From the NCBI RefSeq assembly GCF_003697785.1, contig NZ_QOKZ01000002.1:496001-560000 (forward strand): a stretch of 64,000 nucleotides of DNA, given 5' to 3'. This DNA is from Paracoccus alkanivorans. Lineage in GTDB: Bacteria > Pseudomonadota > Alphaproteobacteria > Rhodobacterales > Rhodobacteraceae. Within the stretch, counting starts at the first letter, position 1. Every line of letters starts with the position of its first letter. The notes under the pieces were generated by a model, which made no database searches, had not been told where the DNA came from, and saw only the letters and a list, made by a program, of their open reading frames with translations. Made by a program: the position numbers and the translations under genes. Positions 39,350 through 43,495 of this stretch are shown one piece after another.

Positions 39350-40018
39350 GTGACCTATGAACCAGTGCCCCTGCCCGACCGGGTGCAATTGTCGCCCGAG
39401 GCTTCACTGCGATCGGTGCGGGCGTTCCGGGATCACATGCGCAAAAGGCATAGCGTGCGCGATTTTTCGGATACGCCCGTCACGCGCGAGGTGATCGAGG
39501 CCTGCATCGAAACCGCCGGAAGCGCCCCTTCGGGCGCGAACCAGCAGCCATGGCATTTCGTCGCGATCAGCGACCCGGCGATGAAGGCCCGCATCCGGCA
39601 AGCCGCCGAAGAAGAGGAACGCGCCTTCTATGCCGGTGGCGGCGGCGATGAGTGGCTGGCGGCGCTGGAACCCGTGGGCACCGGGCCGGACAAGCCGCAT
39701 CTGACCACCGCGCCCTGGCTGATCGTGGTCTTCGCGCAGCGCTACGGGCTGGAGGACGGACAGCGGCACAAGCACTACTATGTCCCCGAAAGCGTCGGCA
39801 TCGCCTGCGGGATGCTGATCGCGGCGATCCATCACGCCGGGCTGGTCACGCTGACCCATACGCCCAACCCGATGAAGTTTCTCAACGAGCTTTGCAGCCG
39901 GCCCGACAACGAAAAACCCGTCATGATCCTGCCCGTGGGCCTACCCGCCGAGGCGGCGGTCGTCCCGGCCATGGCAAAACGCAAGAAGCCGCTGGACGAG
40001 ATCCTGTCGGTTTTCTGA
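39350..40018 (+). CDS. Nitroreductase-family flavoprotein
   Basis: 222 residues with FMN-binding KRHSVRDFSDTPV, APSGANQQPWHF and a C-terminal GIACGMLIAAIHHAGLVTL segment. The overall spacing is that of the nitroreductase/iodotyrosine-deiodinase-like group; substrate unknown. The start codon is GTG at 39350, supported by a strong AGGAGG 5 nt upstream. The structured leader of the sulP gene begins directly after its stop, so read-through into sulP is possible. Confidence 0.88.
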   Translation: MTYEPVPLPDRVQLSPEASLRSVRAFRDHMRKRHSVRDFSDTPVTREVIEACIETAGSAPSGANQQPWHFVAISDPAMKARIRQAAEEEERAFYAGGGGDEWLAALEPVGTGPDKPHLTTAPWLIVVFAQRYGLEDGQRHKHYYVPESVGIACGMLIAAIHHAGLVTLTHTPNPMKFLNELCSRPDNEKPVMILPVGLPAEAAVVPAMAKRKKPLDEILSVF

Positions 40019-40035
40019 GGAACGCGCAGCCCGGC

Positions 40036-40215
40036 CTGCAGCCACTTTCCCGCGGCGGTTTCATCGCGGGCGAAAGCTTGCAGTCCGCCCTCTATCGGGC
40101 TATGCGACGCGCGACCGTCTGGACCCGGGTGAGATTCCCGGGTGGCTCTTCCGGCCGCCGATCCGCCGGATAACCGTGAAAACTGAAGAAAACGCCAGAA
40201 CGCAGCAAGGCTGCG
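40036..40215 (+). promoter_or_regulatory. Structured leader upstream of the sulP-usp genes (candidate cis-regulatory RNA)
   Basis: Within the 222 bp before sulP several inverted repeats line up. P1 is a long bulged stem: CTGCA 40036-40040, CTTTC 40045-40049 and CCGCG 40050-40054 pair with CGCGG 40065-40069, GAAAG 40072-40076 and TGCAG 40079-40083. P2 is GCCC/GGGC (40087-40100). P3 is ACCCGGG 40123-40129 with CCCGGGT 40137-40143. P4 is TCCGGC 40150-40155 with GCCGGA 40165-40170. P5 is CGCAGC 40201-40206 with GCTGCG 40210-40215. P5 ends just before the GAGAGG at 40221. A candidate RNA motif called sul1 has been reported upstream of sulfate-permease genes in Alphaproteobacteria; membership is unverified. 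Confidence 0.6.
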
Positions 40216-40240
40216 CACTGGAGAGGAACGGGACATTTTG

Positions 40241-41722
40241 ATGACATTCGACGATTACCGACGCCAGTGGCTCGGCAATATCCGTGGCGACCTGCTGTCC
40301 GGGCTGGTTGTTGCCCTGGCTCTCATTCCCGAGGCTATCGCCTTCTCGATCATCGCCGGCGTGGATCCGAAAGTCGGACTCTATGCCTCTTTCTCGATCG
40401 CCGTGGTCACTGCCATCGCGGGCGGGCGGCCGGGGATGATCTCGGCGGCCACGGCCGCGACCGCCGTTCTCATGGTGACGCTGGTGAAGGATCATGGCCT
40501 GCAATACCTGCTGGCCACGACGGTGCTGGCCGGGTTGCTGCAGATCGCGGCCGGGTTCGCCCGCCTCGGGCAGTTGATGCGTTTCGTGTCGCGTTCGGTC
40601 ATGACCGGATTCGTGAATGCGCTGGCGATCCTGATCTTCATGGCCCAGCTTCCCGAGCTGATCGGCGTGCCCTTCCTGACCTATCCGCTGGTCGCCGCCG
40701 GGCTTGCCATCATCTATTTGTTTCCCTATGTCACCCGCGCGGTGCCCTCGCCGCTGGTCACGATCATCGTGCTGACCACATTGGCGATAATCTTTGGCTG
40801 GGACGTTCGGACCGTGGGCGATATGGGCGCGCTTCCCGACACCCTGCCGATGTTCCTGATCCCGGATATCCCGCTGAACCTCGAAACCCTGACGATCATC
40901 TTTCCCTATGCGGCTGCGGTCGCGGTGGTCGGGCTGCTGGAAAGCCTGATGACAGCGAATATCGTCGATGATCTCACCGACACGACATCGGATCGCAACC
41001 AGGAATGCATCGGTCAGGGCCTTGCCAATACCGCCACCGGCTTTATCGGCGGCATGGCGGGCTGCGCGATGATCGGCCAGTCGATGATCAACGTCAAATC
41101 AGGCGGTCGCGGGCGGCTTTCCTGCTTTGCGGCGGGTGTCTTCCTGCTGTTCATGGTGGTCTCGCTTGGCGACCTGGTCGCGCGGATCCCCATGGCCGCG
41201 CTGGTCGCGATCATGATCATGGTCTCTGTCGGCACATTCTCCTGGTCCTCGGTCAAGCAACTCAGGACGCATCCGAGATCCTCGTCGCTCGTCATGCTGG
41301 CGACGGTCGCTGTGGTGGTCTACACTCACAACCTCGCCATCGGGGTGCTGGTCGGCGTGCTTTTGTCGGGACTGTTCTTCGCCGGTAAGATCGCGCAGCT
41401 GTTCCGCGTCAGGCCCAGCCTGTCCGAGGACGGGCGCTGCCGGACCTATTTCGTGGAGGGACAGCTTTTCTTTGCCTCGGCCGAGCAATTCATGCGCGCC
41501 TTCGATTTCAGGGAGGCGGTCGACCACGTGGTGATCGACGTCAGCGGCGCACATATCTGGGACATTTCCTCGGTTGCCGCGCTGGACATGGCGGTGCTGA
41601 AATTCCGCCGTGACGGTGCCGAAGTCGAAATCGTCGGCATGAACGAGGCGTCCGAAACCATCGTCGACAAGCTCGCCCTGCATGACAAGCCCGGCGCGCT
41701 CGACAAGCTGATGGCGCATTGA
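40241..41722 (+). CDS. SulP-family anion transporter with STAS domain
   Basis: 493 residues: a membrane domain of about 10-12 helices (1 to about 385), opening with [28 protein letters not shown] in part ([13 protein letters not shown]), and a C-terminal STAS domain (about 400-490, with [19 protein letters not shown]). SulP members carry sulfate, bicarbonate or other anions; the substrate is not fixed by sequence. ATG 40241 is preceded by GGGA at 7 nt and a GAGAGG further up. A universal stress protein gene follows after 13 bp, a pairing seen with bicarbonate-type SulP genes. Confidence 0.9.
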
Positions 41723-41735
41723 GGGAGGAAATCTG

Positions 41736-42587
41736 ATGACAAGGAAGCTTATCGCGCTGGTCGACGGATCGGTCTATTCGAAAACGGTCTGCGACCACGC
41801 CATCTGGATCGCCGGACGCACCGGCATGGATGTCGAGCTGATGCATGTGCTCGGACGGCGCGAGACCGGCCCCGGACAGGACCTGTCGGGTTCGATCACG
41901 CTCGGCGCGCGCAGCGCCCTGCTCGAACAGCTCGCCGGCATCGACGAACAACGCGCCCGGCTGGCTGTGCAACGCGGCCGCGCAATCCTCGAGGACGCGC
42001 AGTCGCTGCTGGAGCAGGCCGGGATCACGGCAAGCGAATATCTCCGGCATGGCGACCTGATCGAGGCTGTCTCGGAAAAGGAGGGCGGGGCGGACCTGAT
42101 CGTCATGGGCAAACGCGGCGAAGGCGCGGATTTCGCCAAGGGGCATCTCGGCTCCAACCTGGAGCGGGTGATGCGGGCAACGACCCGCCCCCTCTTCGTG
42201 GCCTCGCGCGCCTTCAATCCGATCGAAAAGGTTCTGGTCGCCTTTGACGGCAGCGCCAATGCGATCCGCGCGGTGGAACATGTCAGCCGCAACCCGCTCT
42301 ATGCCGGGCTCCCGCTCGAGATCGTGACGGTCGGCCCTGACAGCCCCGCCGCAAAGACGGCGCTGGCGGATGTGAAAAGCCTGCTGATCAAGGCCGGCTT
42401 CGAAACCGGGGCGCGCATATTGCCCGGCCAGCCCGAAGAGGTTCTGGGCAAGCTGATCGAGACCGAAAACTTCGGTCACATGGTCATGGGCGCCGCGGGA
42501 AACAGCCGTCTGCGCGCCTTGTTCGTCGGCTCGACCGCGCTCGAAATGATCCGCAGTTGCAAGGTGCCGATCCTGCTGATCAGGTAA
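41736..42587 (+). CDS. Tandem universal stress protein (UspA family)
   Basis: 283 residues with two Usp domains. The first (about 1-150) starts KLIALVDGSVYS and ends with VMGKRGEG and HLGSNLERVMRATTRPLFV; the second (about 158-283) starts EKVLVAFDGSANA and ends VMGAAGNSRLRALFVGSTALEMIRSCKVP in part (GAAGNSRLRALFVGST). The G-x2-G-x9-G-(S/T) ATP-binding pattern is present in the first half and approximated in the second. Thirteen bp after sulP on the same strand, so co-transcribed; it may be a regulatory partner of the transporter. Confidence 0.92.
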   Translation: MTRKLIALVDGSVYSKTVCDHAIWIAGRTGMDVELMHVLGRRETGPGQDLSGSITLGARSALLEQLAGIDEQRARLAVQRGRAILEDAQSLLEQAGITASEYLRHGDLIEAVSEKEGGADLIVMGKRGEGADFAKGHLGSNLERVMRATTRPLFVASRAFNPIEKVLVAFDGSANAIRAVEHVSRNPLYAGLPLEIVTVGPDSPAAKTALADVKSLLIKAGFETGARILPGQPEEVLGKLIETENFGHMVMGAAGNSRLRALFVGSTALEMIRSCKVPILLIR

Positions 42588-42895: not shown

Positions 42896-43495
42896 TCAGC
42901 TTTCCAGCTCGGCATCCCAGTAAAGAAAATCCATCCAGCTTTCATGCAGGTGGTTGGGCGGGAAACGGCGGCCGACAGCATGCATTTCTTCGGGCGTGGG
43001 CCGGCGCGGCTTGCGGCGCAGGCTCATCCCGCAATGGCGCAGGCTGCGATTCGCCTTGCGCAGGTTGCAGGGCGAACAGGCCGCGACGACATTTTCCCAA
43101 CTGGTGATTCCGCCACGCGAGCGCGGCACGACATGATCGAAGGTCAACTCGCCCTTCGCACCACAATACTGGCAACAGAATTCGTCCCGCAGAAAAAGAT
43201 TGAAGCGCGTGAATGCCACGCGCTTCTGGGGTTTCACATAATCTTTCAGAACGACGACGGAGGGTATCCGGTAGGCCTGCCGCTGACTTCGCACGACCTC
43301 GTCATATTCGGCGATGATACTGACCCTGTCGAGAAACACCGCCTTGATCGCCTCCTGCCAGGGCCAGAGCGAGAGCGGGTAATAGCTCAGCGGCCGGTAA
43401 TCCGCATTCAGCACCAGCGCCGGATGATGGCGCAGGCTGGCCGGTTCCCGCACGAACTGGGTCCGAAACTCCGTCTGATGAGATTTATCCAGCAT
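42896..43495 (-). CDS. HNH endonuclease family protein
   Basis: 199 residues. A short N-terminal domain containing LVLNADYRPLSYYPLSLWPWQEAI is followed by a zinc-ribbon HNH nuclease: CQYCG, then TFDHVVPRSRGG, WENVVAACSPCNLRK. This N-terminal signature marks the chromosomal HNH family that is nearly universal in Alphaproteobacteria and not a homing endonuclease; its cellular role is not established. Cys pairs and the DH/N residues of the active site are intact. Confidence 0.9.
   Translation of the reverse strand: MLDKSHQTEFRTQFVREPASLRHHPALVLNADYRPLSYYPLSLWPWQEAIKAVFLDRVSIIAEYDEVVRSQRQAYRIPSVVVLKDYVKPQKRVAFTRFNLFLRDEFCCQYCGAKGELTFDHVVPRSRGGITSWENVVAACSPCNLRKANRSLRHCGMSLRRKPRRPTPEEMHAVGRRFPPNHLHESWMDFLYWDAELES

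Follow-up and report, generated by a model that had tools for sequence, protein, structure and literature searches.

The gap of 222 bases at 40019-40240 (+) in the window, a stretch of 64,000 nucleotides from the genome of Paracoccus alkanivorans, lies ahead of a gene for a SulP transporter and contains inverted repeats, which raises the question of how much of it is a structured RNA, and of which kind. The gene that ends at the gap on its upstream side belongs to the nitroreductase family (39350-40018, +) and is BluB-like, with a score far under the cut-off of the BluB model. An initial annotation had read the gap as a single structured leader of 220 bases, had suggested the sul1 RNA class as a candidate, and had named a search against Rfam with Infernal as one way to check it. 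This search was run with cmscan on the whole 64 kb and returned a single match at the gathering threshold, sul1 RNA (RF03058) at 40118-40175 on the forward strand, with 75 bits against a gathering cut-off of 36.2 and an E-value of 8.1e-12 in 64 kb. The match is full length, spanning positions 1-56 of the 56 in the model, and its 3' end is found 65 bases ahead of the SulP ATG, so that the window element shows the position upstream of SulP that is associated with RF03058. The region 40118-40175 is a genuine member of the known RNA class sul1, and the suggestion made in the initial annotation was borne out both by this score and by the compensatory changes in the stems that are described below. 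The extent of 220 bases was not, as sul1 itself takes up only 58.

The sul1 class was reportedly described by Weinberg et al. in 2017. In the literature that we searched, it appears as a table row in PMC7371854 and is absent from the main texts of PMC9646797, PMC9337991 and PMC10043782, and neither a ligand for sul1 nor a 'sulfate riboswitch' was found there. The type 'riboswitch' that Rfam assigns to sul1 is a label and not a test. Note that an excerpt of PMC10636060 (trRosettaRNA) gives sul1 RNA under RF01070 and with a citric-acid-cycle description, in conflict with the Rfam accession RF03058.

We further studied whether the folding of the complete gap exceeds chance expectation. The five stems of the proposed leader can be drawn and do occur in the minimum-energy structure of the gap, including in its 5' domain a stem of CCCGCG (40049-40054, +) with CGCGGG (40065-40070, +) and another of GCCC (40087-40090, +) with GGGC (40097-40100, +). 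However, the energy of -87.9 kcal/mol corresponds to a z of no more than -0.18 with respect to 200 dinucleotide shuffles, and of 108 stretches of 222 bases that served as controls, taken from 54 places in the window on both strands, 60 reach an equal or lower z, so that the claim of an unusual density of stems had to be given up. The halves of the gap yield z values of -0.79 (40019-40111) and -1.36 (40112-40240), and sul1 alone one of -0.78. Fold energy thus does not single out sul1, and it is the comparison of sequences that does; in GC-rich DNA, the density of stems is a poor guide to structured RNA and covariation is a better one.

A second line of evidence comes from the predicted start of transcription. 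A generic consensus promoter scan of the window stretch did not reveal a promoter ahead of sul1. In a comparison of registers, a TTG at -46 to -43 from the GG that precedes the first sul1 hairpin and a TA at -23 to -20 are jointly present in 143 of 207 non-redundant sul1 instances, while 18 shifted control registers gave between 0 and 3 instances. In the window this register corresponds to a predicted sigma-70-like promoter at 40078-40106 (+), composed of TTGCAG (40078-40083), 17 bases and TATGCG (40101-40106), and by this register transcription is predicted to begin at 40112-40114 (+), some 6-8 bases past the -10 hexamer. As the register puts the predicted start near 40112, the 5' part of the gap (40019-40111, +) is likely promoter and upstream DNA, and the stems predicted in it would not be part of the leader RNA. 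The initial annotation had considered its structured leader refuted if transcription started downstream of the stems, and according to the promoter register this is predicted to be the case for the 5' half of the gap. Based on the z value, the control stretches and the promoter register, the single structured leader of 222 bases was rejected, and we regard it as extremely improbable.

What sequence comparison defines instead is a compact element with two hairpins. A nearly invariant GG (40121-40122, +) is followed by hairpin P1 (40123-40143, +; 40123-40129 paired with 40137-40143), by the linker GGCTCT (40144-40149, +), of which GGCT is nearly invariant, and by hairpin P2 (40150-40170, +; 40150-40155 paired with 40165-40170), whose loop of nine bases, CGCCGATCC (40156-40164, +), conforms to a nearly invariant CGCYNAUCC. 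Across 214 distinct sul1 sequences, a standard pair occupies 2535 of the 2568 pair cells (in shuffles 2400 on average and 2412 at most), and compensatory double changes are seen in 93 cells as compared to a shuffle mean of 7 and a maximum of 14, with shuffles that do not preserve the relatedness among the 214 sequences. Both sides have changed at 5 of 6 counted pairs in P1 and at 4 of 6 pairs in P2, so that the double changes are spread over nine of the twelve pairs. Before the count, exact duplicates were dropped (257 to 215), as were two matches below the cut-off (L041, L042), one in which no GG was found (L229) and one cut by the end of its stretch (L178). Note that 119 instances, among the matches listed, were found with a pattern that fixed the linker and four P2 pairs (2-5), and conservation in the linker and P2 is therefore partly by construction. 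P1 was outside this search pattern, and the GG together with five or more P1 pairs is present in 115 of these 119 instances, again among the matches listed. Judging from this covariation, P1 and P2 are real stems. The check for compensatory changes that the initial annotation had proposed thus speaks for these two, whereas the other inverted repeats are present in the fold but have no comparative support.

Both P1 and P2 are contained in the window's own whole-leader fold, and a crude detection script located P1 in only 75 and P2 in only 60 of 179 whole-leader minimum-energy folds, counts to which we attach no weight. We also considered pairing between the two hairpins. The bases GGC are pair-compatible with GCY of the loop in 212 of 214 sequences, and GG is likewise compatible with the last CC of the loop in 212 of 214; the loop position opposite the first G is a C in 185 and a U in 29 of the 214. 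This compatibility agrees with the P1 foot touching the P2 loop but is no proof of it, and it does not amount to a covariation test because hardly any variation occurs in the predicted tertiary contacts.

The genes downstream are as initially described, a SulP/SLC26 transporter of the SLC26Dg-like type with a STAS domain (40241-41722, +; PF00916, PF01740), for which we took the start at the ATG at 40241 while the list of open reading frames starts it at a TTG at 40238, and a universal stress protein with two Usp matches (41736-42587, +; PF00582). Further along, at 42896-43495 on the reverse strand, the window encodes an HNH endonuclease-domain protein that is weakly similar to IscB and Cas9d, under the cut-offs of the models. 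The nearest solved relative of the window SulP by sequence is 5da0, with 632 bits over residues 5-493. Although deposited as 'Sulphate transporter', this entry stands for Deinococcus geothermalis SLC26Dg in PMC6497670, where the protein was assayed with fumarate. The window SulP reaches 292.7 bits with the curated sulfate-permease model TIGR00815, against a cut-off of 380.45, and also stays under the cut-offs of the NCBIfam models for DauA and BicA. With SLC26Dg as the closest solved structure and all three models under their cut-offs, 'sulfate' is a family label for this transporter, and its link to sulfate is weak. The name of the RNA class points to sulfate; its main target likely belongs, by substrate, to the SLC26Dg-like class, with fumarate in vitro. 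Among the 78 named loci that could be scored, 33 have a Usp relative after SulP; where the SulP shares at least 75% identity with that of the window, the count is 32 of 33.

The association of sul1 with SulP is not particular to the window. In a first set of 140 instances (138 loci, including the window), SulP follows sul1 in the same orientation and no more than 400 bases downstream in 118, and in a second set, which partly overlaps the first (L266 is the contig of L009), sul1 lies ahead of SulP in 113 of 119 cases among the matches listed, three of the six others being situated at the edge of a stretch. At an E-value of up to 0.001, sul1 was found in at least 79 of 196 relatives, at least 37 of 295 family genomes and at least 11 of 385 class genomes, and over the cut-off in at least 78, 37 and 9 of these, respectively, all of which are lower bounds because stricter search filters were used. 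The SulP gene can do without the element, as evidenced by a class sample of 22 SulP loci with at least 60% identity to that of the window (the window included), in which sul1 was detected by pattern within 260 bases in seven; the 15 others show none by pattern, and one of these (L283) was not scorable. As a separate observation, a palindrome TGTTGC-N3-GCAGCA (or TGCTGC) was noted in the 300 bases ahead of SulP. Its exact form is present in 7 of 30 SulP loci, five in which no sul1 was seen (L286, L290, L291, L292, L308) and two in which it is present (L300, L302), and with one mismatch allowed the palindrome occurs in 17 of the 113 named loci with sul1.

Among the 22 instances of the first set that lack a SulP gene in this position, sul1 precedes a cyclopropane-fatty-acid synthase at five loci (L002, L121 and L123 assigned by Pfam, L124 and L125 by closely similar translations), a membrane acyltransferase-3 at six (L009, L019, L032, L075, L102, L126), hexapeptide transferases at L053 and L059, glycosyltransferases at L117 and L137, and an NYN-domain protein at L113. 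The remaining cases are a SulP gene at 430 bases (L073), an interrupted SulP (L122), a contig end (L130), a locus in which no gene was recognised after sul1 (L136), and the sul1 matches below the cut-off, L041 and L042. The window's own genome contains a second sul1, with 47 bits, ahead of a cyclopropane-fatty-acid synthase. This genome has two synthase-family matches, of 302 and 36.5 bits; the sul1 copy precedes the stronger one, and the weaker is located elsewhere. The synthase-type sul1 has a compensated P1 of its own (GGACUCGA...UCGAGU), and among 125 genomes of the genus, a 28-base pattern derived from it is found in five, which are those of the synthase loci. In the two loci inspected (L148, L149), an L,D-transpeptidase gene follows the synthase. 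Separately, we noted three sul1 copies within about 4 kb in a single genome of the genus, at L140 (5356-9431), ahead of SulP, an NYN-domain gene and a family-8 glycosyltransferase. The promoter register is kept in 105 of 137 first-set instances, but only in 5 of 17 non-SulP copies and in none of 5 synthase copies, and copying of the whole promoter-sul1 unit is thus unsupported for most of the side-target copies.

These copies allow for a wider reading, which we judge unlikely, namely that sul1 is no sulfate switch but senses a small ion or metabolite indicative of envelope or carbon stress, and stands at the head of an envelope regulon. Its main target would be an SLC26 transporter of the dicarboxylate type, often accompanied by Usp, and within Paracoccus and its family sul1 would have been copied ahead of the cyclopropane-fatty-acid synthase with its adjacent L,D-transpeptidase, of membrane acyltransferases and of glycosyltransferases. 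The SLC26Dg-like main target, together with synthase, acyltransferases and glycosyltransferases as side targets, changes the list of candidate ligands. The promoter register and the copies ahead of envelope genes are additions of the present study, and we do not claim that they are unpublished.

The mode of control was addressed in the leader downstream of sul1. Here a third hairpin, P3 (40195-40221, +), is predicted from folds of the window and from positional enrichment, and it runs with its last two bases into the likely Shine-Dalgarno sequence GGAGAGGA (40220-40227, +). A domain of at least seven pairs that ends 10-22 bases ahead of the start codon is found in 91 of 179 leaders, as compared to 34.7 expected from shuffles. 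RNAalifold, applied to 28 leaders (27 of the 30 enrichment leaders and the window), returned P1 and P2 only; as this alignment, in which MAFFT aligns the variable P3 region poorly, lacks P3, the third hairpin is the weaker claim. A Shine-Dalgarno-like string occurs in 42 of 179 long leaders, versus 21.6 in shuffles, and in none of ten SulP paralogues with short leaders. In short-leader paralogues (L007, L014, L022, L028, L043, L047, L083, L171) the start codon is found 18-33 bases past sul1 and the linker reads GGCUAU, not GGCUCU; in L014 the SulP frame is interrupted. Direct pairing of the Shine-Dalgarno and start region with sul1 was considered and dropped, being weak with a mean z of -0.47. 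A scan of 39900-40400 did not detect any intrinsic terminator-like site, and runs of five T are present in 8 of 179 linkers. Since no terminator was found, control at the level of translation is favoured.

In the reading that we consider probable, although far from assured, sul1 sits where the mRNA for the SLC26Dg-like SulP and Usp is predicted to have its 5' end and acts in cis, likely as a translational riboswitch. Transcription is predicted from the sequence to start a few bases ahead of sul1. The P1 foot and the P2 loop would hold a small ligand between them, the likeliest being a small anion or carboxylate with a tie to the substrate of the transporter. Binding would alter the access of the ribosome, the candidate third hairpin being the part that touches the ribosome-binding site. 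That the ligand is linked to an anion or to carbon is possible. Counted against a translational switch are the weak pairing of the start region, the RNAalifold result without P3, and the short leaders without a Shine-Dalgarno-like string.

The short, nearly invariant and single-stranded linker and loop would also suit a docking site for a factor acting in trans, be it an RNA-binding protein or a small RNA, that controls translation or decay without any small ligand, and the copies ahead of unrelated genes have the appearance of a regulon. We nevertheless hold such a factor to be rather unlikely. Both strands of the window's own genome are without a second site within three mismatches of the 21-base core, in a search for which the reversed pattern, used as a control, gave three matches; this argues against a long antisense RNA with such a match, while a short seed is still possible. 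In addition, sul1 is found with SulP in records named Paracoccus, Sphingomonas, Methylobacterium, Devosia, Rhizobium and Caulobacter and in one Rhodanobacter, and its occurrence across many genera would require an equally widespread factor. The promoter register predicts which RNA 5' end to make.

Among known systems, sul1 invites comparison with the Na+-I (DUF1646; Sodium, RF03071) and Li+-I (nhaA-I, RF03057) riboswitches, and it might be argued that it belongs with them and senses an alkali ion. The three are of equal size, with 55-56 model positions, and excerpts of PMC9337991 for Na+-I and PMC9646797 for Li+-I describe the same two-hairpin layout with conserved bases at the P1 foot and in the P2 loop. 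We consider this kinship very unlikely, however, as at E-values of up to 10 the nhaA-I and Sodium models did not match the window element or any of eight other sul1 loci, two of which (L041, L042) themselves fall below the sul1 cut-off. A comparison by eye, made for the nhaA-I consensus, revealed no conserved string in common with sul1. Membership of the window element in RF03057 or RF03071 was discarded for want of a model match at E up to 10. Because the models miss the scanned sul1 elements, the likeness is one of layout only. In a search of the class, nhaA-I gave one match, below the cut-off, in 142 genomes, and in a search of the phylum Sodium gave none in 200; in each search 1 of 14 control genomes was positive. 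Na+-I differs from sul1 also in its associated genes, which are described as sodium-relevant. The authors of the Li+-I study speculate, in the excerpt of PMC9646797, that most members act on the ribosome binding site. On the side of the protein, SLC26Dg (5da0), whose host is Deinococcus geothermalis, aligns with the window SulP over residues 5-493. The window copy of sul1, finally, agrees with RF03058 in all 56 model positions, in both stems and in the association with SulP, and we find no differences between the two.
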